64,000 nucleotides of DNA from Chloroflexota bacterium. Its GTDB lineage: Bacteria; Chloroflexota; Dehalococcoidia; JACPQD01. Shown here piece after piece: positions 13,960 to 62,768 of this stretch; position 1 is the stretch's first letter, and each line of letters starts with the position of its first letter. Under the pieces are notes generated by a model. It searched no databases. It saw only the letters and a program-made list of their open reading frames with translations, and was not told the DNA's origin. The position numbers were made by a program, and so were the translations under genes. The stretch is from positions 1-64,000 of the forward strand of contig JACPQD010000021.1 in assembly GCA_016190665.1 (NCBI GenBank), written 5' to 3'.

Positions 13960-14130
13960 GATTCCCGATCCCTCTCCCGCGGAGGTCTGCAGGATAATCG
14001 GGGGTGGAGGTTCTGGCTCTTGGCCCCCGTTGCATCGAGGCCAATGACAGCGGCGCGGCCGCGTCGGATTCTCGCCGACTTGCTCTCCGGTCAGCCCGCA
14101 GTTGCCTTTGGGCGACCCCCGGCTACCTAT
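13960..14130 (-). promoter_or_regulatory. Cobalamin (AdoCbl) riboswitch
   Basis: The minus-strand RNA contains the cobalamin riboswitch core GGCGAGAATCCGAC followed by GCGGCCGCGCCGCTGT, preceded by AAAGGCAACTGCGGG (AAGGGAA-like box) and followed by AGCCAGAACCTCCACC, which resembles the B12 box. It starts about 10 nt after a strong promoter and ends just before an intrinsic terminator, upstream of cbiA. Exact outer boundaries are approximate. The placement predicts transcriptional attenuation of the whole cob operon by cobalamin. Confidence 0.85.
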
Positions 14131-14145
14131 TCATTTCGAGGGCTT

Positions 14146-14202: not shown

Positions 14203-15237
14203 CTACAATCTTATGGCCTTGGTCTGCGCCCGACTGGTGCCGAAAGTGGGCATGCAGGCGATGTGGTACGGCTGAGGCGCACCCGCCACGACCAGGACGA
14301 TATCCTCGGGTCGCTTGACGGGCCGCACCAGGCCCTTATCCACCCACATGATTTTCTTCTCCCGACGTTCCTTGGGGAACCTGTCTTCGGGGACCCCGGA
14401 CTGATCGTAGATGGTCTGCTTCACATCCTCCTTGGAGTACCCCTCGGACTTGAAGAGCGCCGCGTGACCGGAGGCGAGCACCACCGTCGGCTGGCCGCCG
14501 CCGAGGAACATGTCGTTGCTCCCCATCTGGGCCAGGGTATTGCCGATAAGCATCAGGATCTCGTCGCTGAACCTGACCCCCGCCGTCAGGATGTTAGTGG
14601 TCCCCGACATGCCCACCACCGTGACGGCGCTATCCTCCCTCTCGAATCCCCGCTCCACGTGAAGCGGGTCCCAGACGCTTCCCTCCTCGTCCTCTCCGAA
14701 GCAGAGGGTGTACTTGGCCGGCTGACCATGCACTGCTTTGTCCACTGGCCCCGGCGCGGCGCCGCCGATGTTAAGCAGGAGAAACCTTATCGCCCGCCCG
14801 ATGGTCGCATTGGCGCGCCAGCCCTGGCCGAGGCAGTTGGCGCCACAATTTATGTCAAGCTTCTTCCGGACCGGACCGTTGACAATCGTGGCCGGCGCCA
14901 CCGGGTTGGTCGTCGCCTGAATCCCGTTCAGATTGAAGTCCGGCTCGCACATGGCCTCCAGCGCAGCAATGATCACCGGAGCGTAGCTGGGAAGACAGCC
15001 AGCCATGACGGCGTTTATGGCTATCTTCTCCACCGTCGCCTTGCCCAGCGCTGGAGGAACGCGCACGATCAACTCGCCCGGGTCGCGGCCAATCTCCTGG
15101 AGCATGGCGGCTACCTTTTCCTCGGTGGGCGCGACTATCGGGAGGCCGTCGGTCCAGCCTCTTCTGTAGGCAAGCTCGTTTATGGCGTCGGAGGAATCGG
15201 GGACGTCTACCCTCTTAGATTTCAGCCCTTCAACCAT
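14203..15237 (-). CDS. UGSC-partner protein, copy 1 (uncharacterised family)
   Basis: Uncharacterised protein of about 344 aa. ATG 15237 is preferred because GAAAGGAG lies upstream. It is homologous to the protein at 23615 and to the C-terminal two-thirds of the fusion at 61095. Shared blocks are RGWTDGLP (near the N-terminus), ATVEKIAINAVMAGC, NLNGIQATT, ATIVNGP, RANATIGRAIRFLLLNIGG and DPLHVERGFE. No signal peptide, membrane segment or cofactor motif is evident; conserved Cys (AVMAGC) and His residues could be functional. It lies 118 bp downstream of a UGSC selenoprotein gene in the same direction, and the fusion elsewhere implies the two products work together. I cannot assign a reaction. 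Confidence 0.82.
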   Translation of the reverse strand: MVEGLKSKRVDVPDSSDAINELAYRRGWTDGLPIVAPTEEKVAAMLQEIGRDPGELIVRVPPALGKATVEKIAINAVMAGCLPSYAPVIIAALEAMCEPDFNLNGIQATTNPVAPATIVNGPVRKKLDINCGANCLGQGWRANATIGRAIRFLLLNIGGAAPGPVDKAVHGQPAKYTLCFGEDEEGSVWDPLHVERGFEREDSAVTVVGMSGTTNILTAGVRFSDEILMLIGNTLAQMGSNDMFLGGGQPTVVLASGHAALFKSEGYSKEDVKQTIYDQSGVPEDRFPKERREKKIMWVDKGLVRPVKRPEDIVLVVAGAPQPYHIACMPTFGTSRAQTKAIRL

Positions 15238-15276
15238 CGAAGAGACTCCTTTCAATAAACGTGGTGACTCTTCCTG

Positions 15277-15345
15277 CACCGCAGAGGCACAGAGTCCGCT
15301 GAGTCCTTACTGATTTCTCTCTGTGCCCTCCGCGTCTCTGCGGTG
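15277..15345. repeat. Intergenic inverted repeat, CACCGCAGAG family
   Basis: CACCGCAGAGGCACAGAG on the left is mirrored by CTCTGTGCC...CTCTGCGGTG on the right, giving an imperfect palindrome of about 70 bp between the selenoprotein and partner genes. Elements of this look are widely dispersed in intergenic DNA of several phyla. Confidence 0.75.
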
Positions 15346-15355
15346 AAAATTGGGG

Positions 15356-15913
15356 CTATCTGCTCACCGCAGGCTTCGCCGCCCGGCGCGTCAGCTTAGC
15401 GACAATCTCATCGAAGTGGGCATCGACGTCAGCCCTGACCTTATCCTCCGGTAAATACTCGAGGTCGCGGTGCAGGGAGACGATGGGCAGGTTACCCATC
15501 CCTCTGGCCTTCGCCGATGCGTTGGCCAGCGCCGTAAAGCCCTCGGTAATGAGGGTCACCGCCGGTATGCCTCTCTTCTCCATCTGGATGCCGTCGTGGA
15601 TACTCCACGCTGTGCAGGAGCCTCAGTTGCCGAGGCCGACAATGGCCAGGTCGCATTTCTTGGCCAGGTCCTCGATGATTTCGTCGGGCGCGGGCTGGCT
15701 GCCGGACTTCTTCCTCCAGATGATCTCCGCTGGCCTGTATTTCTGGTTGAGGAGTTCCTGTATCCTGGTGAGGGCCACGTTCAGGCTCCACCAGCCGTTG
15801 TCGATGAATCCGATCACCTTGCCGTTGAGGTCGCCCACGGGGGCGGCGAGAGCGATTTCCTCCTCCTCGGGCTCCGCCGTGGGGTCCAGAATCTGGGTCA
15901 TCTTGACTGACAT
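15356..15913 (-). CDS. UGSC-family selenoprotein, copy 1 (UGA read as Sec97)
   Basis: The two ORF-track pieces (15623-15913 and 15356-15583) are one frame interrupted only by TGA at 15625-15623. Read through, it gives a 185-aa protein with GLGNUGSCT, the signature of what is known as the UGSC family of (seleno)proteins. A hairpin (CGTGG-AGTAT-CCACG) begins 13 nt after the UGA, right for a bacterial SECIS. The N-terminal part includes GKVIGFIDNGWWS; after the U come HDGIQMEKRGIPAVTLITE and a mixed C-terminal region. The UxxC arrangement resembles the redox motif of glycine reductase protein B (UGTCT, from memory). It precedes its partner gene on the same strand, behind promoter 15962-15990. 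Confidence 0.85.
15595..15609 (-). promoter_or_regulatory. Candidate bacterial SECIS hairpin (copy 1)
   Basis: CGTGG-AGTAT-CCACG, 5 bp with a 5-nt loop, starting 13 nt after the in-frame UGA. The position matches bacterial SECIS elements that lie inside the coding region. Confidence 0.55.
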
Positions 15914-16114: not shown

Positions 16115-16152
16115 CGACCTCCCCGCTTGAGTCGGAGGTCGTTTTCTTGCTT
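16115..16152 (+). terminator. Terminator/attenuator in leader of mutase locus 1
   Basis: CGACCTCC, 11-nt loop, GGAGGTCG, then TTTTCTTGCTTT. With the promoter at 16011 this defines a transcript of about 100 nt, either a small RNA or an attenuated leader. Similar CGACC/GGTCG hairpins followed by U-rich runs lie in the leaders of mutase locus 2 and of the crotonase operon. Confidence 0.7.
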
Positions 16153-16176
16153 TGGGACACAAATAGGAGGCCAGGC

Positions 16177-16498
16177 GGCCAACATCGCCTTCGACCGAGA
16201 GGCGGCCATCGCCGCCGCCATGCAAGGTAGAGGCGTCATCGGCGGGCTCCTCTACCCTGGCGGCGAATGGGCCAGGCCCAGGGCGGAACTGGACAAGAAG
16301 CCTGGGTATCGTAAGCCGGGGGATGCCGAGAGGGCGGAGGCGAGGAAGCTTCTGGCCGAGGCCGGCTTCGCCGATGGCTTCAAGTCCACCATCACTACCA
16401 GGCAGGGGTTTGTGGAGAGCGTGCGTCCGGAGATTTCTTCACAGGCTCTTCAGAAACTTCAACTGGCCACCGCCTCTTGTGGCACAAGGCGGTAGTAA
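16177..16498 (+). pseudogene. Remnant of a family-5 solute-binding protein
   Basis: The frame ending at 16495 translates to a fragment that matches the middle of the solute-binding lipoproteins found at 48-61 kb: AFDREAAIAAAMQGRG, then WARPRAELDKKPGYRKPGD, then AEARKLLAEAGFADGFKST. Intact relatives have the same AFDRQ...PGYRQPKDADVAEAKKLMAEAGF block in about 560 aa. Here about 100 aa survive, with no signal peptide, N-terminal lobe or C-terminal lobe, so it is a deletion remnant. It sits between the leader hairpin and the mutase pair, suggesting that locus 1 once had a transporter component as locus 2 does. Confidence 0.85.
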
Positions 16499-16593: not shown

Positions 16594-18036
16594 GTGGAAG
16601 TTAGAAACAGGAAATGGGACGAGGAAGTATTCCTCAGCGAATTGAAGAAGGTCCTGGACCTCTATCCTACGGGTCGCAGCGTCGACCTCAATGAGGCGCT
16701 GGAATTCCACAAGTCCATGCCGCCGGAGAAGAATGTTACCCACGCCTACAAGAAGGCGACCGAGCAGGGAAGGATTCTCGTGCAGCCGCGCGCGGGGACC
16801 GCGACGATTGACGAGATGGTCCGCTTTCTCACGGTACTTCAGAACGACGGTGGCGCGGATATCCTGCCTATGACGATAGATACCTATACGCGGCGGCTGC
16901 AGTTCAAAGAGGCCGAGGTGGGTCTTGAGGAGAGCCTGAGGAGCGGTCGCTCTCACCTTAATGGCTTCCCGGCCGCTATCCACGGCGTCGGCGGCTGCCG
17001 CCGCGTGGTCGATGCGGTGTCGCGGCCGGTCACCGTGCGCACAGCCACCGGCACGCCCCATTTTACCAATGCCATTGCCTTTGCCGGAGGAGTTACCGAA
17101 GCGGTGGGAGCCGGACTGGCCCTGGGGCCGCCGAACTCGCCTCAGCCCATCGCCAACTCGCTCTTCTATTTCCAGTTCGTCGAGCGACTCATCGGCTGGT
17201 TCGAGGAGCGCGGCGTCACTATTTGCATGGAGCAGGAGGGCGCCAATGCGACGGGCATCATGTGCCCGCCATCGCTCCAGGCAGCCTACGGCGCGATAGA
17301 CGTGCTGCTGGCGGCGGAGCAGGGAGTCAAGAGCCAGTTGGTGGCCTATTTCCAGAACAATTGCATCGTCCAGGACCTGGCGGGCATGAGGGTGCAGCGC
17401 CGTCTGGCGGAGAGGTCGCTGAAGAGGTTCGGGTATGACTACACCTTCCTGGGGCAGGCAGCCAATTCCTGGCGCGGCTGCTACCCCGAGGACGCCGCCA
17501 GGGCCTACGGGATAATTTCCATCTCTACAGCCATCGCCGCCTACGCTCACGTAACCAAGGTCAACCCTAAGTCCGTCGAGGAGGGTGTTGGCGCTCCCTC
17601 GCCAGAAGGTAACGCGGCGAGCTGTCGCTCCACGAGGCAAGTGCTGGACCAGATGCGGGGGCAGGAGTTCCCTGACTCACCGGAACTGCAACTCGAGGAG
17701 AGAATAATCGAGGCGGAGGCGACCTCCATCCTGGAGCGAGTGCTGGAGATCGGCGATGGAGACGTGGCGGTGGGTACTGTTAAGGCCTTCGAAAGCGGCG
17801 TCATCGAGCACCCCTACTGCTCTCACCGGGCCAACGCGGGCAAGGTGATGCTGGTGCGCGACAAGGCCGGTGGGGTGCGCTACCTGAGCCATGGCAACCT
17901 GCCGCTGCCCAGGGAGGCCATCGAGTACCATCAGGAAAAGATCCGCGAGAGGATGCAGGCGGATGGCCTGACAGAGTCCGAGATGGTGGTGGAAGATATC
18001 CGCAGCGTTCGAGCGCCGGTGAGAGGAAAAGTATGA
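16594..18036 (+). CDS. Glutamate-mutase-like epsilon subunit, copy 1
   Basis: Large subunit of a B12-dependent carbon-skeleton mutase, 480 aa, the usual size of glutamate mutase subunit E (GlmE). GTG 16594 is preceded by GGAG. Family blocks include QPRAGTATIDEM, GGADILPMTIDTYTRR, GRSHLNGFPAAIHGVGGCRR, GWFEERGV and VLLAAEQGVKSQLVAYFQNN. The segment that in true GlmE reads FEGGGISYNIPY (substrate Glu and Tyr residues, from memory) is TEAVGAGLALGPPN here, so the residues that hold the substrate amino group appear lost. The substrate is therefore probably not glutamate. Its stop overlaps the small-subunit start (ATGA), giving stoichiometric co-expression. Confidence 0.85.
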   Translation: MEVRNRKWDEEVFLSELKKVLDLYPTGRSVDLNEALEFHKSMPPEKNVTHAYKKATEQGRILVQPRAGTATIDEMVRFLTVLQNDGGADILPMTIDTYTRRLQFKEAEVGLEESLRSGRSHLNGFPAAIHGVGGCRRVVDAVSRPVTVRTATGTPHFTNAIAFAGGVTEAVGAGLALGPPNSPQPIANSLFYFQFVERLIGWFEERGVTICMEQEGANATGIMCPPSLQAAYGAIDVLLAAEQGVKSQLVAYFQNNCIVQDLAGMRVQRRLAERSLKRFGYDYTFLGQAANSWRGCYPEDAARAYGIISISTAIAAYAHVTKVNPKSVEEGVGAPSPEGNAASCRSTRQVLDQMRGQEFPDSPELQLEERIIEAEATSILERVLEIGDGDVAVGTVKAFESGVIEHPYCSHRANAGKVMLVRDKAGGVRYLSHGNLPLPREAIEYHQEKIRERMQADGLTESEMVVEDIRSVRAPVRGKV

Positions 18037-18467
18037 CAGAGCCGGAGAAGATGTATCACACGACAGTCGTGACCGGGGCGATGAATGACCTGCACGTCCT
18101 GGGTATCAAGGTGCTCGAATACTTCCTGGAGAAGGATGGCTTCAAGGTGGTCTTCGCCGGCGCATGGCTTACCCAGGAAGACTTCATCAAGGCGGCGATG
18201 GAGACGAACGCCAAGGCTATCCTGGTCTCCTCATCCTACGGCATGGGCGAGTTGGACTGCGCTGGCATGCGGGACAAGTGCCAAGAGGCGGGCATCGGCG
18301 ACATCATCCTCTACGCTGGCGGCAACCTTACGGTGACCCGCCAGCAGCAGCAGTGGGAGGACGTGGCCGCCCGATTCAGGGCCATGGGCTTCGACCGCGT
18401 CTATCCGCCCAGCGTGACGCCGGAGCAGGTGATCGAGGACTTGAAGACGGACCTGGGGCTGGCATAA
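18033..18467 (+). CDS. B12-binding small subunit of the mutase, copy 1
   Basis: B12-binding protein of 144 aa, homologous to glutamate mutase sigma subunit (GlmS). It carries the base-off/His-on motif DxHxxG as NDLHVLGIKV (His about residue 20), then VSSSYGMGE and YAGGNLTV, which form the nucleotide-tail pocket. ATGA overlap with the large subunit shows translational coupling. It is closely similar to the copy at 43618, indicating duplication of the mutase pair within about 25 kb. A short hairpin (CTCTCTCGC/GCGGGAGAG) follows the stop but lacks a U-tract. Confidence 0.92.
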   Translation: MTEPEKMYHTTVVTGAMNDLHVLGIKVLEYFLEKDGFKVVFAGAWLTQEDFIKAAMETNAKAILVSSSYGMGELDCAGMRDKCQEAGIGDIILYAGGNLTVTRQQQQWEDVAARFRAMGFDRVYPPSVTPEQVIEDLKTDLGLA

Positions 18468-23545: not shown

Positions 23546-23614
23546 ACCGCCCGCATATGACGTGAGTTGTCGGGAACCGTTTGGTTCATGATGCTGAAAT
23601 CAGAGGGGAGTTGT

Positions 23615-24670
23615 ATGGAGCTCAAGTCTGAACGAATCGATATTGCCGACTACTTCGAGTGGCTGGAACTGGCCTTCCAGCGGCGCTGGACGGACGGCCT
23701 TCCCGTGGCGCCGCCGACGGCAGCCAAGGTCGAGGAGATGGTGGCCTACGCGAAACGAGACCCGAGCGACGTTATTGGCAAGATCCCGCCGAAGTACGGG
23801 ATAGCGACCATAGAGAAGCTGGCCATCAATGCGGTGATGGGAGGCTGCCTGAAGGAGTACTTCCCGGTGGTGATCGCCGCCGTGGAGGCCATGCTGGAGC
23901 CGGAGTTCAACCTTAATGGCATTCAGACGACTACCCACTGTAACGAGCCGCTGACCATCGTCAACGGCCCCATTGTCGCGGAGATTGGGATGAAGACGCG
24001 AGAAGCGGTCTTCGGCGGCGGCGGAGCGCGGGCCAACGGGGCCATTGGTCGAGCCGTCCGGCTGGTCCTCTGGAACCTGGGCGGGTGCTACCCGGGAGAG
24101 CCGGACAAGACGACCTTTTCGCACCCGGGGAGGTGGACCTACTGCATCGCTGAAGACGAGGAGGGCAGCCCCTGGGAACCGCTGCATGTCGAGCGAGGCT
24201 TGCCGCCGGGCAGCAGTGCGGTGACGGTTTTCTCGTGCGAGGCGCCCCACAGCATCTTCTGCGCAGGTACGCCCCGTCAGCTCCTGGCCCGCGTCTGCTA
24301 CGCCATGGCTACTACGGCCAGCAACAATTTCCATTTTCAAGGCCAGATGCTCCTGGCCATCAACTCGGAGCACGCCGCCACGTTCAAAGCGGAAGGTTGG
24401 TCCAAGGCTGACATCAAAGCCTACGTGTGGGAGCATGCCCGCGTCCCGCTGGGCAGGATAAAGGAGGGGCTCTTTGTCAGGGAGTACGCGGCTCGTTCCT
24501 ATCCGAAGTGGATCGATGTGGATGGTGTGGAGGACATGGTCCCCATCGGCGTTAGGCCGGATGAGATACACATCGTCGTCGCCGGCGGCCCCGGCAAGTT
24601 CTGCATGTGTTGCCCCAGTTGGGGGCACGACGGTGGCAACGCGGTGACAAAGCCGATACGCCTGCCCTAG
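23615..24670 (+). CDS. UGSC-partner protein, copy 2 (uncharacterised family)
   Basis: Uncharacterised protein of 351 aa. ATG 23615 follows GGGGAG with good spacing and is preferred over the upstream ORF start. It shares with copy 1 (14203) and with the fusion (61095) the blocks RRWTDGLPVAPPT, IATIEKLAINAVMGGC, NLNGIQTTTH, LTIVNGP, RANGAIGRAVRLVLWNLGG and EPLHVERGL. The C-terminus has a CMCCPSWG cysteine cluster that the other copies lack (copy 1 has ACMPTFG), a possible metal or redox site. It is followed 193 bp later by the second UGSC selenoprotein gene. Cytoplasmic by prediction; reaction unknown. Confidence 0.82.
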   Translation: MELKSERIDIADYFEWLELAFQRRWTDGLPVAPPTAAKVEEMVAYAKRDPSDVIGKIPPKYGIATIEKLAINAVMGGCLKEYFPVVIAAVEAMLEPEFNLNGIQTTTHCNEPLTIVNGPIVAEIGMKTREAVFGGGGARANGAIGRAVRLVLWNLGGCYPGEPDKTTFSHPGRWTYCIAEDEEGSPWEPLHVERGLPPGSSAVTVFSCEAPHSIFCAGTPRQLLARVCYAMATTASNNFHFQGQMLLAINSEHAATFKAEGWSKADIKAYVWEHARVPLGRIKEGLFVREYAARSYPKWIDVDGVEDMVPIGVRPDEIHIVVAGGPGKFCMCCPSWGHDGGNAVTKPIRLP

Positions 24671-24863: not shown

Positions 24864-25436
24864 ATGGTTGAGACATTGCGAATGACGGTACTCAGTCCCG
24901 AGGCCGATGTTGAGACTGTGAGGGTCCAGTCGTGCCGGAGGCTGGATAGCCTTGAGGGTAAAGTTATAGGGCTGATAGAGAACGGCTTTGACGGGGCTGA
25001 TTATTACATGAGGGCCTTGGAGGACAGGCTCCACCAGGTCTTTCCCAGGATCGAGACTGTTTACGTGCAGAAGCCCGATCCAACTCGCCCGGCCGCCGGA
25101 GAGATGTACGAGGAGGCGCTGAAGAAATGTGACGCTGTGATAGTGGGGGTGGGGGGCTGAGGCTCCTGCACGTCGGGCTGTACGCACGACGCCATCGCCA
25201 TAGAGAAACGGGGGCTGCCGGCCGTGGCCGTGATCCACGATTACTTTGAGGGGGCCTCCCGAGCTCAAGCCAAGCTGCTGGGCATTGATGACCTGAAGAT
25301 CGCCGCCTTGCGGAGGCCGCGCGCCACTGATACTGAGGAGATGAGACGCGAAGCGGTGAAGATGCTTTTCGAGCAGGTGGTCAACTGCCTGACGGCTGCC
25401 GCTGAACCGGAAGCGGCGATGGCGCCAGAGGGCTAG
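24864..25436 (+). CDS. UGSC-family selenoprotein, copy 2 (UGA read as Sec99)
   Basis: ORF 24864-25160 ends in TGA, but the same frame continues open to TAG at 25436. Read through, it is a 190-aa protein with VGVGGUGSCTSGCTHDAI, the UGSC signature plus an extra Cys three residues further on. A hairpin CGTCG-(11 nt)-CGACG starts 10 nt after the UGA. The N-terminal region has LEGKVIGLIENGFDGADYY, and post-U sequence IEKRGLPAVAVIHDYFEG parallels copy 1. The short ORF-track piece at 25224 is its C-terminal part. Sec insertion needs SelA-D, absent from this window, so the reading rests on frame conservation, the hairpin and two paralogues with the same architecture. Confidence 0.87.
25171..25191 (+). 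promoter_or_regulatory. Candidate bacterial SECIS hairpin (copy 2)
   Basis: CGTCG, loop GGCTGTACGCA, CGACG, beginning 10 nt downstream of the in-frame UGA. Size and distance fit an intragenic bacterial SECIS. Confidence 0.55.
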
Positions 25437-42172: not shown

Positions 42173-43624
42173 ATGGAGTCGGAGGTCAGAAATAAGAAAT
42201 GGGATGAAGACGTGCTGCGGAGCATGCTTGCGGAGGTGCTGCGCCTCTATCCCACTGGTCAAGACGTGGATCTGGAGGAAGCGGTAGAGTACCACCGGTC
42301 TATGCCGCCCGCGAAGAACGTCACATATGTCTACCAGGAGGCAGAGAAGGAAGGAAAAGTTCTCATACAGCCTAGGGCGGGGACAGCGACCATAGAGGAT
42401 ATGATCGCGCTACTGCGGTGTCTTCAAGACGAGGGGGGCGCCGATATCCTCCCCATGACCGTCGACACCTATACCCGAAGGATGCAGTTCCGGCAAGCGG
42501 AGATCGGTCTGGAAGAGAGCAAACGGACGGGGCGGTCGCACCTTAACGGCTTTCCTGCCGCGATCCATGGAGTGGCAGGCTGTCGCCGCGTCGTTGAGGC
42601 CGTGTCTCGCCCGGTGACCTTCCGAACGGCTACAGGCACACCTCAGTTCAACGACGCGATCGCCTTCGCCGGAGGCGCCACTGAATGTGGTGGAGGGGCG
42701 GTGGCTCTCGGCATTCCCAACAGCCCGCAACCTGTCGCGGTCTCGATCCGCAACTACCAGTTTGTAAATCGGCTGATGGGTTGGTTCGAGGAACGGGGAG
42801 TCACCATCTGTATGGAGCAGAAAGGATGCAACGCCACAGGGATCATGTGTCCCCCCTCTCTCCAAGCCGCTTACGGCGTCATCGATGTGTTGCTGGCTGC
42901 GGAACAGGGAGTTAAGAGCCAATTGGTCGCTTACTTTCAGAACAACTGCGTCATTCAGGACATTGCTGGGATGAGGGTGCAACGCAGGCTCGCCGAGCGT
43001 TACCTGAACAGATTTGGCTACAAGGATACTTACCTGGGCCAGGCTGCCAACTCCTGGCGGGGGTGCTACCCCGAAGACCTCGCCAAGGGCTATGGCATCA
43101 TCTCCGTCTCCACCGCCATCGCCGCCTATGGGGGGGTGGTCAAGGTCTGCCCCAAATCTGTGGAGGAGGGCCTTGGAGCGTCCTCGAAGGAGGCCAATGC
43201 AGCGAGTTGCCGTTCCACGCGACAGGTCCTCGACGTGATGCGAGGGCAGCAGTTCCCCCGATGTCCCGAGCTGGAGTTGGAGGAGGCCATGATCGAATCG
43301 GAAGCTACAGCGGTCGTGGAAAGGGTTCTGGACATTGGCGACGGCGACATCGCCGTCGGCACTGTTCGAGCGTTCGAGTCCGGCGTCATCGAATACCCCT
43401 ACTGTTCGCACAAGAGCAACGCGGGAAAAGTGATTCTCGTGAGGGACAAGGAGGGGGCGGTGCGCTACCTGAATCCCGGCTATCTGCCCCTGCCTAAGGA
43501 GGCTGTCCAGTATCACCAGGAGAGAATACGCGAAAGACAGTGCCTCGAAGGTGTGAAAGAGTCTGAGATGGTGGTCGACGACATACGGTGCGTTCGATCG
43601 CCTGTGAGAGCGGTATCATGGTAG
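42173..43624 (+). CDS. Glutamate-mutase-like epsilon subunit, copy 2
   Basis: Large subunit of a B12-dependent mutase, 483 aa, closely similar to the copy at 16594 along its length (QPRAGTATIEDM, GGADILPMTVDTYTRR, GRSHLNGFPAAIHGV, FQNNCVIQDIAGMRVQRRLAER). In the substrate segment it reads TECGGGAVALGIPN where classical GlmE has FEGGGISYNIPY (from memory): Cys replaces the Glu thought to bind the amino group, and the Tyr residues are absent. The two copies differ from each other exactly here (EAVGAG against ECGGGA), which suggests separate substrates. It starts the LysR-controlled operon and overlaps the small subunit by 7 bp. Confidence 0.87.
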   Translation: MESEVRNKKWDEDVLRSMLAEVLRLYPTGQDVDLEEAVEYHRSMPPAKNVTYVYQEAEKEGKVLIQPRAGTATIEDMIALLRCLQDEGGADILPMTVDTYTRRMQFRQAEIGLEESKRTGRSHLNGFPAAIHGVAGCRRVVEAVSRPVTFRTATGTPQFNDAIAFAGGATECGGGAVALGIPNSPQPVAVSIRNYQFVNRLMGWFEERGVTICMEQKGCNATGIMCPPSLQAAYGVIDVLLAAEQGVKSQLVAYFQNNCVIQDIAGMRVQRRLAERYLNRFGYKDTYLGQAANSWRGCYPEDLAKGYGIISVSTAIAAYGGVVKVCPKSVEEGLGASSKEANAASCRSTRQVLDVMRGQQFPRCPELELEEAMIESEATAVVERVLDIGDGDIAVGTVRAFESGVIEYPYCSHKSNAGKVILVRDKEGAVRYLNPGYLPLPKEAVQYHQERIRERQCLEGVKESEMVVDDIRCVRSPVRAVSW

Positions 43625-44061
43625 AGTCTCAAGCGGACGAGAAGAAGTACCATACGACAGTGGTCACCGGGGCCCTCAACGATCTGCATGTTCTGGGAAT
43701 CAAGGTCCTGGAGTACTTCCTGGAGAAGGAAGGCTTTAGGGTGGTCTTTGCCGGAGCATGGCTGACTCAGGAGGACTTTATCAAGGCGGCGATCGAAACG
43801 GATGCCAGTGCCGTTCTGGTTTCCTCCTCCTACGGGATGGCGGAGATAGACTGCGCCGGGATGCGCGAGAAGTGTCGGGAGTCCGGCATTGGCGATCTAC
43901 TGCTCTACGCGGGGGGAAACGTGACAGTCACTCGCCAGCAACAGAGCTGGGAGGACGTGGCTGCTCGCTTTAGGAACATGGGCTTCGACAGGGTCTATCC
44001 GCCGAGCGTCACTCCCGAGCAGGTCATTGCGGACCTGAAGGCTGACCTGGCGCTGCCCTGA
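43618..44061 (+). CDS. B12-binding small subunit of the mutase, copy 2
   Basis: B12-binding protein of 147 aa. ATG 43618 lies within the end of the large-subunit gene, and KYHTTVVTGALNDLHVLGIKV aligns with copy 1; the ORF-track start upstream is not supported. DxHxxG is present as DLHVLG, then VSSSYGMAE and YAGGNVTV for the cofactor tail. Followed 44 bp later by the glycyl radical enzyme on the same strand, so both radical enzymes belong to one transcript. Confidence 0.93.
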   Translation: MVESQADEKKYHTTVVTGALNDLHVLGIKVLEYFLEKEGFRVVFAGAWLTQEDFIKAAIETDASAVLVSSSYGMAEIDCAGMREKCRESGIGDLLLYAGGNVTVTRQQQSWEDVAARFRNMGFDRVYPPSVTPEQVIADLKADLALP

Positions 44062-44105: not shown

Positions 44106-46562
44106 ATGCCGTCGCCAAGAATCGTGGAAATGAAGAAGGAACACGTTCCGAAGTACTACGTCGGGGATGACTTCAGCAAGCCGGTCCGTTTTTCCGTCTT
44201 GAGGAGCCGGTACTACACGGAGACATGGAAGGAAACTGAGGGAGAGCCCATTTCCGTTCGAAGAGCCAAGGCCCTTGCTCGGTACCTGGACAACATGCCG
44301 CTCTATATCCGGCCTTTCGAGCTCATTGTTGGCTTCCATGCGGAGGACCCCCACTGCTTGCCCCTTTGTATAGAGGGCTGGGATCAAAGAAGCGTCACCC
44401 AGTACATCAATGCCGGTCGTTGCAAATCGGAAGACCTGGACGAATGGCATGAGTTGATCGAGTATTGGAAGCCACGCAGTCTCGGCACGTTGGTTCGAAA
44501 CCAGATAACGCACAGGGACTTCCTGATCGGCGCCGCCAGGAACAGGTACATGGAGGCGCTGCCAGGCGAAACTGGCTCACGCACTCAACCGGACCATGAC
44601 ACCTATTTGGAAACGGGCCTGAACCAGATTGTGGAGACGCTGTATGGAAAGCTGGCTGACCTCAACAGCCAGTGGGAGGCCACCACGGGCGGAACCCAGG
44701 CGGTGGAGATCCGCAAGAAGATCTACGACCTTCGGGCAATGATCATCTCGGCTGAGGCCGTGCTTCGTTGGGCCAAGCGGTACAGTCGACTGGCCAAAGA
44801 GATGGCCGACAATGAGGCGGACCCGGAGCGGAAGAAGGAGCTGGAGCAGATATCGGAGATATGCGCCTGGGTGCCCGGCAATCCACCGCGCACGTTCTGG
44901 GAGGCCCTGCAGAGCCATTGGCTGGCGTATCTGGCCTATCACATCATTGAGGTCATGTGCCACGGCACTTCCATGCGGACCGACCAGGTCTTCTGGCCCT
45001 GGTATGAGAAGGATGTCCTGATCGATAAGTCCCTGCCACGCCAGAAGGCGTTGGATCTGATGGAGGAGTATCTCCTTCATGTGGATGAGCTGGGTCGGCC
45101 AGCCCCGGCCCATCGTCGCAGGACTGCTCAAGGCAACAATTTCTTGGCCACCTACACATTGGGAGGCGTGAAGGCTAAGGACGGGAGCGACGCCTGCAAC
45201 GAATTGACCATCCTGATTCTGGATGCCCTGGACGATTTGAGGGTGAGCCATCCTGACCACAAGTTCAGGTGGCATCCGAGGGTTAACCCAAGAGTCTGGA
45301 AGCGCGTGGTTGAAGTGGTAAGGAGCGGACTCGGTCAGCCGTCCATCAAGAACGACGAGGTGGTGATTGGAGCGCTGATGGACCACTATGGGTTCACCCT
45401 GGAGGAGGCCAGGAGTTGGGCAGTTGTCGGCTGCGTGGCCCCCGCCCCGACCATCCACTGGGGCCGCGCGAGAAGAGACGCTTACGGGGCCAATGCCTTG
45501 AAGCCTCTCGAGCTGACTTTGAATAACGGCGTCGATCCCCTCCTCGGACACGAACCCGAGGAATTCCGAAATGATAAGATCCTGCAAGCTTTGGCGGAAG
45601 ACCCCCGGATAGGGCCGCCAACCGGGGATCCTGCGGAATTCCGTTCCTTTGAGGAGTTGCTTGAAGCCTATCGACAACAGATGAGGTGGATGGTGCGGAA
45701 GGCATCGGCCATCAAGACCATCTACGAGCATATGAATAACGAGCATATCAAGCGTCCGTTTGCCTCCTGTCTCTTCCATCGCTCCCTTGATGCTTGCCGG
45801 GACATCATGGACGTCTACGATAAAGGCATGCCGTGGATGAACTGCGCGGGGACGGTTGACGCTGCTGACACGCTTATCTCGCTCAAGAAGCTGGTCTTCG
45901 ATGACAAGAAGTACACTATGGCGGAGGTATTGAAGGCGATTCGGGCCAACTGGGAAGGCTACGAAGAGATGCGGCGAGATTTCATCAATGCGCCCAAGTT
46001 CGGGAATGATGATGCCTACGCGGATGAAATAGCCAGGTGGGTTTACTCGATGATAGCGGACGAGATGGCCCAAGCTAGAGACGTTTCGAATCAGTCTCCC
46101 ATGCGATCAGGTCTCGTCGTCTCGCGCATGTTCCAGCTTGCACCCCACGTGGGCGCCATGCCGAATGGCAGGAAGGCCGGTGACTGGCTAGGCGACGGAG
46201 GCGTCAGCCCCCACGCCAAATATGACAGGAGCGGGCCGATGGCGGCGATATTGTCTGCTGCAAAGATAGACCACCGCAAGCACAAGGCGAACCTGTTCAA
46301 CCAGAAGCTGACTCCCGCGAGTGTGGCGGGAGAGGCGGGGTTGAGAAAGCTTCAGAACTACATAGAGACGGCCATGCACCTGGGACTCGACATGATCCAG
46401 TTCAATGTAATCGATGTGGGGACCTTGAAGGAAGCGCAGGCGCGTCCTGAGAAGCATGCCGAGCTGGTGGTGCGGGTCTCGGGGTTCAACGCACACTTTG
46501 TTGACCTTAACCGGTTTGTGCAGGACTCCATCATAGAGAGGACCGAGCACGCGCTCGCGTAG
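44106..46562 (+). CDS. Glycyl radical enzyme (pyruvate formate-lyase family)
   Basis: Glycyl radical enzyme of 818 aa, typical length. ATG follows AAGGAGG. The active-site Cys is Cys443 in AVVGCVAPAP and the radical Gly is Gly793 in RVSGFNAHFVDLNRFVQDSIIERTEHA. HPRVNPRVWKRVVEVVRSG and MPNGRKAGDWLGDGGVSP are family blocks. The Cys motif GCVAP differs from the GCVE of choline lyase and diol dehydratases, so the substrate is open; dehydratase, C-C lyase or arylacetate-type chemistry are all possible. No radical-SAM activating enzyme lies in the window. The enzyme is oxygen-sensitive by nature, indicating anaerobic operation. Confidence 0.92.
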   Translation: MPSPRIVEMKKEHVPKYYVGDDFSKPVRFSVLRSRYYTETWKETEGEPISVRRAKALARYLDNMPLYIRPFELIVGFHAEDPHCLPLCIEGWDQRSVTQYINAGRCKSEDLDEWHELIEYWKPRSLGTLVRNQITHRDFLIGAARNRYMEALPGETGSRTQPDHDTYLETGLNQIVETLYGKLADLNSQWEATTGGTQAVEIRKKIYDLRAMIISAEAVLRWAKRYSRLAKEMADNEADPERKKELEQISEICAWVPGNPPRTFWEALQSHWLAYLAYHIIEVMCHGTSMRTDQVFWPWYEKDVLIDKSLPRQKALDLMEEYLLHVDELGRPAPAHRRRTAQGNNFLATYTLGGVKAKDGSDACNELTILILDALDDLRVSHPDHKFRWHPRVNPRVWKRVVEVVRSGLGQPSIKNDEVVIGALMDHYGFTLEEARSWAVVGCVAPAPTIHWGRARRDAYGANALKPLELTLNNGVDPLLGHEPEEFRNDKILQALAEDPRIGPPTGDPAEFRSFEELLEAYRQQMRWMVRKASAIKTIYEHMNNEHIKRPFASCLFHRSLDACRDIMDVYDKGMPWMNCAGTVDAADTLISLKKLVFDDKKYTMAEVLKAIRANWEGYEEMRRDFINAPKFGNDDAYADEIARWVYSMIADEMAQARDVSNQSPMRSGLVVSRMFQLAPHVGAMPNGRKAGDWLGDGGVSPHAKYDRSGPMAAILSAAKIDHRKHKANLFNQKLTPASVAGEAGLRKLQNYIETAMHLGLDMIQFNVIDVGTLKEAQARPEKHAELVVRVSGFNAHFVDLNRFVQDSIIERTEHALA

Positions 46563-46707: not shown

Positions 46708-46857
46708 TGGGATCGCCCGTTCTACATAGCTCAGCAGGACGGACACTGAGAATTTGGCGAACACGCGCTCTTAAAGTGACTGTCGGGGGGTTATGGTAGC
46801 AGATTGAAAGCTCCGAGATATTCAAGTTCCGACCTGATCCCTGAGGGAGGTCCTTTG

Positions 46858-48219
46858 ATGGGCGTTACTGAACAGTTGGCAGCTTTCATGGTGGAGACTC
46901 GCTTCGAGGAGATTCCTGGCGAGGTAATAGGCCTGACCAAGAAGTTCTTCCTCGATTGCCTTGGTACGGCGCTGGCCGGGTCCCGGGAAGAACCGGGACG
47001 AATCATCACCGAGTACACACGCGAGATCGGTGGCAGTCCTGAGTCGACTTTGGTTGGCAGCGGCTTTCGGACTTCCGCGGCCAACGCGGCGCTGGCCAAC
47101 GGCCTTATGGCCCACGTCCTCGATTTCGACGACTCAGGCTTTTCCCATCCCACCGGTTGCATTCTGCCCGTCCTTCTCTCGATGGGTGAGAAGCTGAGGG
47201 CCTCTGGCAGAGAGGTGCTGACTGCTCATGTGATGGGCTACGAATGCTTTGGCAAGCTGTCCTACTGTTCCCGACCCTATGAGCGCGACCTGCGAGCGCG
47301 AGGCTACCATCCCAGCCCTCTCTGGGGATCCATGGGCGCTGCCGCTGCCGCCGCTAAGCTGCTGAGGCTGGACGTCGACAGGACCCGGATGGCGCTCGGC
47401 CTGGCGGGCTCTCAGGCAGCGGGGCTTACCGAGAACTTCGGCACTATGACCAAGGGCTTTCACAGTGGAAACGCGGCGAGGGCCGGTGTACTGGCAGCTT
47501 TACTCGTAGGCAAGGGATACACGGCCAGCCAGGAAATCATTGAAGGAAAACACGGCCTGTATCACGCGGTGGTGGGCGAAGGCAACTATGACCTGGGCAG
47601 AGTTACGGAGAATCTGGGGAAGACCTGGGAGGTGGTGACGCCTGGGTTGTCGGTGAAGCGCTACCCCTGCTGTGCCGGCAACCTGCGCGCCCTCGACGCC
47701 GTGCTCGGCATAGTCAGGGAGCACAATGTTTCCTTCAGCGACGTTGAGTCGGTGGAAGTCGAGATAAGCGCTCAGCGCCGCGACACGCTTCGTTTCGATA
47801 AGCCTGCCTGTGGCTTCCAGGGTAAGTTCAGCATGGAATACAACATGGCGGCCGCCATTCTGGATGGGAAAGTGGATATCGAGACCTATCACGATGCGAA
47901 GGCCCATTCCTCTGAGATGAAGGAGGCGCTGAGCAAGGTTCGCGTAATCGTCAGGACGGACTGGGCGTGGGATGTGGGGAAGCGGCGGAGCCCCGTCAAG
48001 GTCAGGATGAGGGACGGGCGCGAGTTCCTTAATGAGGTGGAAAAGCCAAGGGGTCATCCCGAGAATCCTCTGACAGATGAGGAGTTGCACGCCAAGTTCC
48101 GGTACTGTGCGGGTAGGGCGGGCCTGTCGGAGGATAAGACTGAAGGCACGATTGAGCTCGTGCAGAGGCTTGAGACGCTTGGGGACATCACTTCTATCAT
48201 GGAGAGTGTTACCGCGTAG
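46858..48219 (+). CDS. MmgE/PrpD family protein 1
   Basis: MmgE/PrpD-family protein, 453 aa. ATG 46858 follows GGGAGGT; the longer ORF start is not supported. Blocks: KKFFLDCLGTALAGS, NALANGLMAHVLDFDD-like (NAALANGLMAHVLDFDDSG), KGFHSGNAARAGVLAALLVGKGY and KRYPCCAGNLRALDAVLG. The family includes 2-methylcitrate dehydratase, cis-aconitate decarboxylase and iminodisuccinate epimerase, all acting on di- or tricarboxylates. One of three paralogues within 9 kb; they are diverged enough to have distinct substrates. It lies after the glycyl radical enzyme and before a solute-binding lipoprotein. Confidence 0.88.
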   Translation: MGVTEQLAAFMVETRFEEIPGEVIGLTKKFFLDCLGTALAGSREEPGRIITEYTREIGGSPESTLVGSGFRTSAANAALANGLMAHVLDFDDSGFSHPTGCILPVLLSMGEKLRASGREVLTAHVMGYECFGKLSYCSRPYERDLRARGYHPSPLWGSMGAAAAAAKLLRLDVDRTRMALGLAGSQAAGLTENFGTMTKGFHSGNAARAGVLAALLVGKGYTASQEIIEGKHGLYHAVVGEGNYDLGRVTENLGKTWEVVTPGLSVKRYPCCAGNLRALDAVLGIVREHNVSFSDVESVEVEISAQRRDTLRFDKPACGFQGKFSMEYNMAAAILDGKVDIETYHDAKAHSSEMKEALSKVRVIVRTDWAWDVGKRRSPVKVRMRDGREFLNEVEKPRGHPENPLTDEELHAKFRYCAGRAGLSEDKTEGTIELVQRLETLGDITSIMESVTA

Positions 48220-61094: not shown

Positions 61095-62768
61095 ATGTTC
61101 GGGCTTGAGGTCTTAAATCCGGTGGCGGTGAGCCAGGGAGAATTGGAGAAATACGCGCCCGCTCCCAGGCCGGATACCCTTAATGGTAAGACTGTGGGAC
61201 TTCTTTGGAACAGCAAGAGGGGCGGCGAGGTGGCACTTGCGAAGGCTGGGGAGCTTCTGCAGTCACGCTTTCGCGATGCTAAGCTCGTACGGTACGACGG
61301 TTCCGTTCATTGTGAGACGGAGCTGTTGAAGCAGGTCAAGAAAGATTGCGATGTGGTCATCGGTTCCACAGGTGATTGAGGTGCGTGTACGTCGTGGCTT
61401 GTCCACGACTTGGTCTTCCTTGAAAAGGAAGGCATTCCCACCGCGTGTATTGTCTCAAAGGGATTCGAAGCGGATGCCGAGGGAACCGCCAGAGCCTTTG
61501 GCTTGCCCTCTCTGCAATACGCCCTGGTTGCAGATGTCCTGACGGGGCTAGGTCCGGAAACGATTAAAGAAGAGGTTGCGGAAGCATTCCCGGAGATACT
61601 GAAAGCCCTAACGACAACTCCTGCGACGAGCAAGGCAGGACCGGCCACACCTATGAAGGTTGGGCCCGCCGACCGCGAACGGTTTGAGGGCGACGACTGG
61701 TACGATGCTTTTAAGAATATGAACCGGGCTTTTCTGGAGCGTGGGTGGAGCGATGGGTTGCCATTGATGCCCGCGACGGAGGAACAGGTAAGGCTCGTTC
61801 TCAGGGGAACTACCAGGGACCCACAGGATGTGGTGGCAATCCTGGCTCCTGGCAACGGGGTAGCCACAGTTGAGAAAATAGCCATTTGCGCTGCCATGGC
61901 TGGCTCTGACCCACGGTACTTGCCTGTACTGATAGCTGCCGTGGAGGCCATGTGCGCACCTGGCGTCTTTCTGAGAGCGATGGCGATGTCCACCACCCCC
62001 CACGCCCCCTTGCTTCTAGTGAACGGGCCCATTGCCAGGGAGCTCAAAATAAACTCCGGGCGGTGTGCTCTCGGGCCGGGCCCTCAGTCCCACGCCAATA
62101 TCACTATAGGCAGAGCATTGAGGCTTGTCCTGATGAATGTGGGCCATGCCTACCCGGGGAAGATGGACATGGATACCATAGGATCAAGCAGAAAGTTCAG
62201 CCTGTGCATGGCCGAGAACGAGGAGAAGAGCGGCTGGGCGCCTCTTCATATGGAAAAGGGATTCCCCCGGGAAGCCAGCACCGTCACCGTTTTCGTCACC
62301 AGGGACGAGATAGACGTCAACGACTTGGTGAACTGGACCCCCGAAGGCGTCCTGAATACTATCGCGGACTACACAGCAATCCCGGGCGGCGACTACGTAC
62401 ACCAGCTTCATCCAGGCGACGAAGACCCGCTCCGTGCTCTCGTGGTGTTATGTCCTGAGCATGCTCAAATAGTGGCCAGAGCCGGATGGGCCAAGAGTGC
62501 GGTGAAGGACTATCTTCATCAACACTCGCAAATTTCGGCCAAGAAGATTCTCAACAAAGCCAGGAGGAGGTCAGACAAGGTGCGGCCTCAGTGGCGATGG
62601 CTTCTTGAGTTGTCGGAGGATGCCGCGGAGCGCGTTCTCCTCCCCGTACTCAAGAGCCCGGAGCATTACGACATCGTGGTGGTGGGTGGCCCAGCAGGCA
62701 AGAGCCTGGTATTCCGTACCCTTGGGGCGGGTTCCACTGCGGCGATTAGGGACCGAAGCGCTATCTAG
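61095..62768 (+). CDS. Fused UGSC-type selenoprotein and partner protein (UGA read as Sec95)
   Basis: ATG 61095 opens a frame broken only by TGA at 61377-61379 and then open to 62768. Read through, it is a 557-aa protein. Residues 1 to about 185 are a UGSC-type domain: TLNGKTVGLLWNSKRGGE, then IGSTGDUGACTSWLVHDLVFLEKEGIP. This is a U-G-A-C variant of UGSC. A perfect 7-bp hairpin (GTCGTGG-CTTGT-CCACGAC) starts 11 nt after the UGA. Residues from about 205 form the partner domain (RGWSDGLPLMPAT, VATVEKIAICAAMAGS, LLLVNGP, ANITIGRALRLVLMNVGH, APLHMEKGF). Elsewhere in this window these are separate adjacent genes, so this is a natural fusion implying a complex or channelled reaction. Confidence 0.88.
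61391..61409 (+). promoter_or_regulatory. Candidate bacterial SECIS hairpin (fusion gene)
   Basis: GTCGTGG-CTTGT-CCACGAC: perfect 7-bp stem and 5-nt loop beginning 11 nt after the UGA. It is the strongest of the three candidate SECIS hairpins. Confidence 0.65.

Follow-up and report, generated by a model that had tools for sequence, protein, structure and literature searches.

A gene pair from a Dehalococcoidia genome is best read as a working AdoCbl carbon-skeleton mutase that belongs to the glutamate mutase family by structure and acts on a dicarboxylic acid, other than glutamate or 3-methylaspartate, that most likely lacks an alpha-amino group. We put the probability of this reading at a little under 0.6. 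It is the most likely one because the residues that handle glutamate's amino group and side carboxylate are lost. The proposed substrate is most likely of the glutarate/methylsuccinate type, possibly substituted. The window is the whole 64,000-nucleotide stretch analysed (contig JACPQD010000021.1), part of a 5.0-Mb draft genome that is 96.6% complete. It contains two copies of the pair:

16594..18036, + strand: large subunit, GlmE/MutE-like, copy 1, a TIM-barrel AdoCbl mutase (from profiles, alignment and model)
18033..18467, + strand: small B12-binding subunit, GlmS/MutS-like, copy 1 (144 aa, profile match)
42173..43624, + strand: large subunit, copy 2, with the same pocket changes (74% identical to copy 1)
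43588..44061, + strand: small subunit, copy 2 (83% identical to copy 1)

Family and Integrity of the Mutase Pair

The large-subunit ORF named in a preliminary description of this DNA is present, has a GTG start, encodes 480 aa and overlaps the small-subunit ORF by 4 bp. It matches PF06368 (428 bits) and TIGR01503 (426.8 bits, cut-off 390.1), and the small subunit matches TIGR01501 (151.8 bits, cut-off 135.8). Curated models would call copy 1 a glutamate mutase/methylaspartate mutase. Over its full length the large subunit matches Clostridium cochlearium GlmE at 42% identity (E about 1e-120), and the small subunit aligns with GlmS. The base-off/His-on motif DxHxxG is kept as NDLHVLG in the small subunits of both window copies. 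The AlphaFold model of the large subunit (pLDDT 93.7) superimposes on 1cb7_B with a TM of 0.95 and an rmsd of 1.4 A. A TIM-barrel large subunit with a separate B12-binding small subunit defines the PF06368/PF02310 structural family, and copy 1 has both. By its substrate residues, copy 1 falls outside the glutamate mutases.

With C. cochlearium GlmES/MutES (1cb7, 1i9c, 6h9e) the pair shares the E+S organization, the TIM barrel, the Rossmann B12 domain, DxHxxG and the arginine claw. Unlike that enzyme, it has six replaced pocket residues, a predicted helix where the tyrosine loop lies, a new glutamate (E169), and SSS in place of SSL in the small subunit, a change also seen in the other small subunits found for its clade (see below). 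If the chemistry follows the classical enzyme, the small subunit would bind B12 base-off/His-on and the large subunit would hold the adenosyl group. Homolysis would then give a 5'-deoxyadenosyl radical that abstracts a substrate hydrogen, and a carboxylate-bearing fragment, on R66/R149, would migrate past an acrylate-like fragment on R100.

The GlmE/GlmS-type pair of copy 1 is intact and evolves under purifying selection. The dN/dS between copies 1 and 2 is about 0.07, with synonymous sites near saturation, so both pairs are maintained. Directly upstream of copy 1 lies a degraded gene:

16121..16483, + strand: remnant of an ABC substrate-binding protein (SBP_bac_5-like, family assigned by eye; found by tblastn)

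Intact counterparts of the remnant (E 5e-22, about 50% identity over about 80 aa) immediately precede two sister mutases (L025, L023). Decay next door might suggest that the mutase is itself a decaying or non-catalytic copy, but its ORFs are intact, its codon bias is strong, its claw and B12 motifs are conserved, and the dN/dS is low. We consider this reading very improbable.

The Substrate Pocket

Pocket positions were mapped in an alignment of 50 family members with C. cochlearium GlmE numbering. The classical set consists of 24 GlmE sequences, defined by E171, Y177 and Y181; R66, R100 and R149 are also present in 24/24, and H150 is invariant there. In GlmE, the glycyl part of the substrate is bound by R66/R149 together with E171, which takes its amine; R100 and Y177 hold the acrylate part, Y177 at its carboxylate, and Y181 touches the methylaspartyl radical (PMC9545868). 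The roles that the preliminary description had assumed for E171, Y177, Y181 and the claw agree with this account.

Copy 1 keeps the whole claw (R66, R100, R149), and D96, N123, G68 and E330 are retained beside the claw and DxHxxG. Because the claw is intact, two carboxylates should still be held. The changes in copy 1 are Q147T, H150T, E171V, Y177L, H291N and the replacement of Y181 by P or N, depending on the placement of a one-residue gap. Position 171 is Val in copy 1 and Gly in copy 2, with Glu in none of the six clade members, and E171, Y177, Y181 and H150 are missing from all six. Columns 164-188 contain no Tyr in either window copy, and E169 is the sole acid there in copy 1. A small alignment shift therefore cannot bring back Y177 or Y181. 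The replaced block differs from that of classical GlmE by one residue in length:

17086..17142, + strand: block in place of the E171/Y177/Y181 substrate loop, codons of residues 165-183, GGVTEAVGAGLALGPPNSP (from the alignment; helix predicted at 174-181)
17098..17100, + strand: Glu169 codon (invariant in the clade; Ser, Asp or other residues elsewhere)

We compared the model of copy 1 with a control AlphaFold model of a Clostridium GlmE (pLDDT 95.0); both are ligand-free predictions, not observed structures, and share one set of aligned sequences. In both a strand starts at 169, so the register appears unshifted and residue 171 is Val. After the strand, the GlmE control has a loop at 172-186, whereas copy 1 has a helix at 174-181. 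The preliminary description had correctly noted that the substrate block is replaced. Its pairing of FEGGG with TEAVG, read from the first letter, sets Glu opposite Glu and is offset by two residues, as judged from the anchors G166 and T168 and from the models.

The replacements are concentrated in this part of the protein. Positions invariant in the classical set are lost at 12/24 sites in 147-183 versus 29/141 elsewhere (Fisher P = 0.004, a value somewhat flattered because three of the 147-183 positions defined the classical set). The loss of the Glu and Tyr residues had been anticipated in the preliminary description, which missed that E169 is invariant in the clade. E169 occurs in 6/6 clade members and in none of the other aligned sequences. 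Two residues ahead of 171 in the same strand, it could make contact with an amine. Residue 326 is Lys in both window copies and Arg in three other clade members.

Relatives and Genome Content

In a tree, the two window copies form a clade at 100/100 with three more proteins of their own genome and one from JdFR-54, a relative in the class Dehalococcoidia; the clade is separate from the clostridial glutamate mutases. An alignment-based contig scan gave 29 loci, of which only that of JdFR-54 falls in this clade, and a single-protein contig scan found no relative. Among 393 genomes of the class and 400 of the phylum sampled, we found no clade member beyond JdFR-54. The genome has eight PF06368 (MutE) loci, one of them a fragment, and a single MutL. 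Its several MutE paralogues carry differing pocket blocks, which point to divergent substrates; the E171/Y177/Y181 set is present in 0/7 full-length loci. No methylaspartate ammonia-lyase was found above the cut-off in the 96.6%-complete draft (best, a partial match of 20.5 bits, cut-off 27). The canonical substrate has probably been lost, given the lack of the glutamate motif in all seven full-length homologues, the missing ammonia-lyase, and the position of copy 2 beside a glycyl radical enzyme of the fumarate-adding type.

Several observations count against the preferred reading: copy 1 scores above the cut-off of NCBI's curated equivalog model of methylaspartate mutase subunit E, E169 is invariant, and K326 varies in the clade. 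The pair could still be a glutamate/methylaspartate mutase that holds the amine through E169 and other rearranged residues, as passage of both the TIGR01503 and TIGR01501 cut-offs, the intact claw and the invariant E169 would suggest. We judge this improbable because Y177, Y181, H150, Q147 and H291 are lost as well and the ammonia-lyase is missing; the differing pocket blocks of the paralogues and the unshifted register also argue against it. One part of the preliminary claim of a new carbon-skeleton mutase stands, in that the glutamate-recognition residues, and probably the canonical substrate, are lost. The novel role itself we infer, since an amino substrate is still conceivable with an invariant E169 close to the missing E171.

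In a second, distant clade of MutE homologues from Dehalococcoidia/Chloroflexota, R66 and R149 are gone and R100 is the only claw arginine left (L029, L031, L033, L034, L035 in G044; L030, L032, L036 in G007; L028:9868-11415 in G034; L065). Several of those in G044 are near UbiD-like and old-yellow-enzyme-like genes, as recognized by eye. These R100-only homologues may act on monocarboxylates.

Neighborhood of Copy 1

The neighborhood of copy 1 holds, besides the substrate-binding protein remnant, the following features on the other strand:

13986..14135, - strand: cobalamin riboswitch (RF00174, 40 bits, gathering threshold 31.5)
15359..15913, - strand: UGSC-family protein with an in-frame TGA (VGLGN-U-GSC), divergent from copy 1 and not claimed for the mutase system

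The riboswitch precedes a leftward series of cobalamin-biosynthesis genes from 13827 on (identities by eye from the ORFs); both are less than 3 kb from copy 1. This neighborhood gives no clue to the substrate, a further point against the preferred reading.

UGSC proteins are abundant in this genome. At least 150 UGSC-family (PF24696) loci are present (150 listed of 208 candidates), and 146 among the matches listed have an in-frame TGA. An association of UGSC proteins with the mutases was considered and rejected; with at least 150 of them in 5 Mb, chance alone would place several near the eight mutases. The window has three copies, at 15359-15913 (-), 24864-25433 (+) and 61107-62768 (+), and in each the TGA falls at the U position of U-G-[SA]-C. 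SelA and SelB are encoded on contig C84, and a selenocysteine tRNA was sought in the draft genome and not found. The largest prokaryotic selenoproteome has been given as 39 selenoprotein genes (2022 review, PMC9312934). A further family, with a W[ST]DGLP motif and no Pfam or NCBIfam match, accompanies UGSC proteins or is fused to them:

14203-15279, - strand: W[ST]DGLP-motif family
23567-24670, + strand: W[ST]DGLP-motif family
61107-62768, + strand: W[ST]DGLP-motif family, fused to a UGSC protein

Neighborhood of Copy 2

Copy 2 is followed by a glycyl radical enzyme, which starts 44 bp past the small subunit on the same strand:

44106..46562, + strand: X-succinate-synthase-type glycyl radical enzyme (PF02901 and PF01228)
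46804..48219, + strand: MmgE/PrpD-family protein, downstream of the glycyl radical enzyme (PF03972 and PF19305)

The best PDB matches of the glycyl radical enzyme are MasD (9o8u, E 4e-143) and TutD (4pkc, E 1e-135), the next being at 1e-100. A tree built with three reference proteins, in which branches are long, joins it to these two at 100/100 and sets it apart from the other glycyl radical enzymes. Like MasD and TutD it has the Cys-x-x-Pro active-site motif and the glycyl radical motif RVSGF. An Arg-Arg lies, in a gapped alignment region, within two residues of the position of the fumarate-binding Arg, which we take to be R508 of BSS. It is 34-35% identical to them, and no small accessory subunits or activase were recognized beside it in the window.

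The direct mutase/glycyl radical enzyme tandem is the only strong functional link that we found, and it belongs to copy 2. The genome encodes three X-succinate-synthase-like enzymes, and only the neighbor of copy 2 adjoins a mutase (none at L111 or L113). MmgE/PrpD genes are near all three, the one at L113 recognized by eye. This is weak evidence, because the genome has about 50 such genes, three of them in the window (46804, 50400, 54016), and an association of MmgE/PrpD with the mutases is marginal for the same reason. The L111 cluster also holds an aconitase-type large-subunit gene and a small-subunit-like gene (L111:695-2481), and a radical-SAM activase-like gene (L113:2704-3654) adjoins the L113 enzyme. 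In all, 23 PFL-like glycyl radical enzymes are encoded in the 5-Mb genome (L066-L077, L100-L119), and 13 of the 23 share a single clade, whose active-site motif is of the GCSQ type.

Candidate Substrates

Two concrete substrate candidates emerge, each a version of the preferred reading, that of a mutase for another dicarboxylate. One is a hydroxy analogue, in which 2-hydroxyglutarate and 3-methylmalate, or a substituted version, would be interconverted; a hydroxyl would take the place of the amine and the base E171 would be needless. An intact claw with a lost amine contact is consistent with this, and the clostridial glutamate mutase reportedly turns over 2-hydroxyglutarate slowly. A 2-hydroxyacid dehydrogenase gene lies near a sister copy in L022, but beside that one only. 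MmgE/PrpD and aconitase-type hydro-lyases occur around copy 2 and the related glycyl radical enzymes, the proximity of MmgE/PrpD counting for little at its genomic frequency. On balance this substrate is possible, though taken by itself unlikely.

The other candidate applies foremost to copy 2, whose mutase would rearrange, as free acids, the adducts that the glycyl radical enzyme next to it would form with fumarate. The 44-bp tandem points to it, as do the small residues that replace E171, Y177 and Y181. Against it, the migrating fragment would be a non-captodative acetate radical, at a higher energetic cost; of the X-succinate-synthase-like enzymes, one in three adjoins a mutase, and copy 1 is near none. 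We hold this candidate to be doubtful. It does have a precedent in alkylsuccinate pathways, where a B12 mutase carries out the carbon-skeleton rearrangement (PMC9576796).

Relation to Known Systems and Significance

The mutases of alkylsuccinate degradation are of the methylmalonyl-CoA mutase type, and the rearrangement normally comes after CoA activation. They likewise perform a B12-dependent carbon-skeleton rearrangement, but are of another family (fold-search TM about 0.5, 12-15% identity to copy 1) and take CoA thioesters, whereas the claw of the window pair would bind free carboxylates. As a broader and frankly speculative idea, Dehalococcoidia may have a B12-dependent route that parallels alkylsuccinate degradation on free acids, in which a glycyl radical enzyme joins its substrate to fumarate and a re-specialized mutase rearranges the substituted succinate without CoA, and the mutase family may have radiated there into several substrate classes. 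We found no prior report of this variant in the literature on glutamate mutase with glycyl radical enzymes or Dehalococcoidia, and none joining methylaspartate mutase with alkylsuccinate synthase.

Glutamate mutase is generally regarded as a family with a single substrate. The well-supported clade described here retains the radical machinery and the carboxylate claw and has its recognition loop swapped, and PF06368 alone would be an unsafe basis for annotating glutamate fermentation. Together with the R100-only clade, it would offer a natural series for how carbon-skeleton mutases choose and stabilize migrating groups. Should the tandem of copy 2 reflect a functional link, anaerobic substrate activation would gain a new step.
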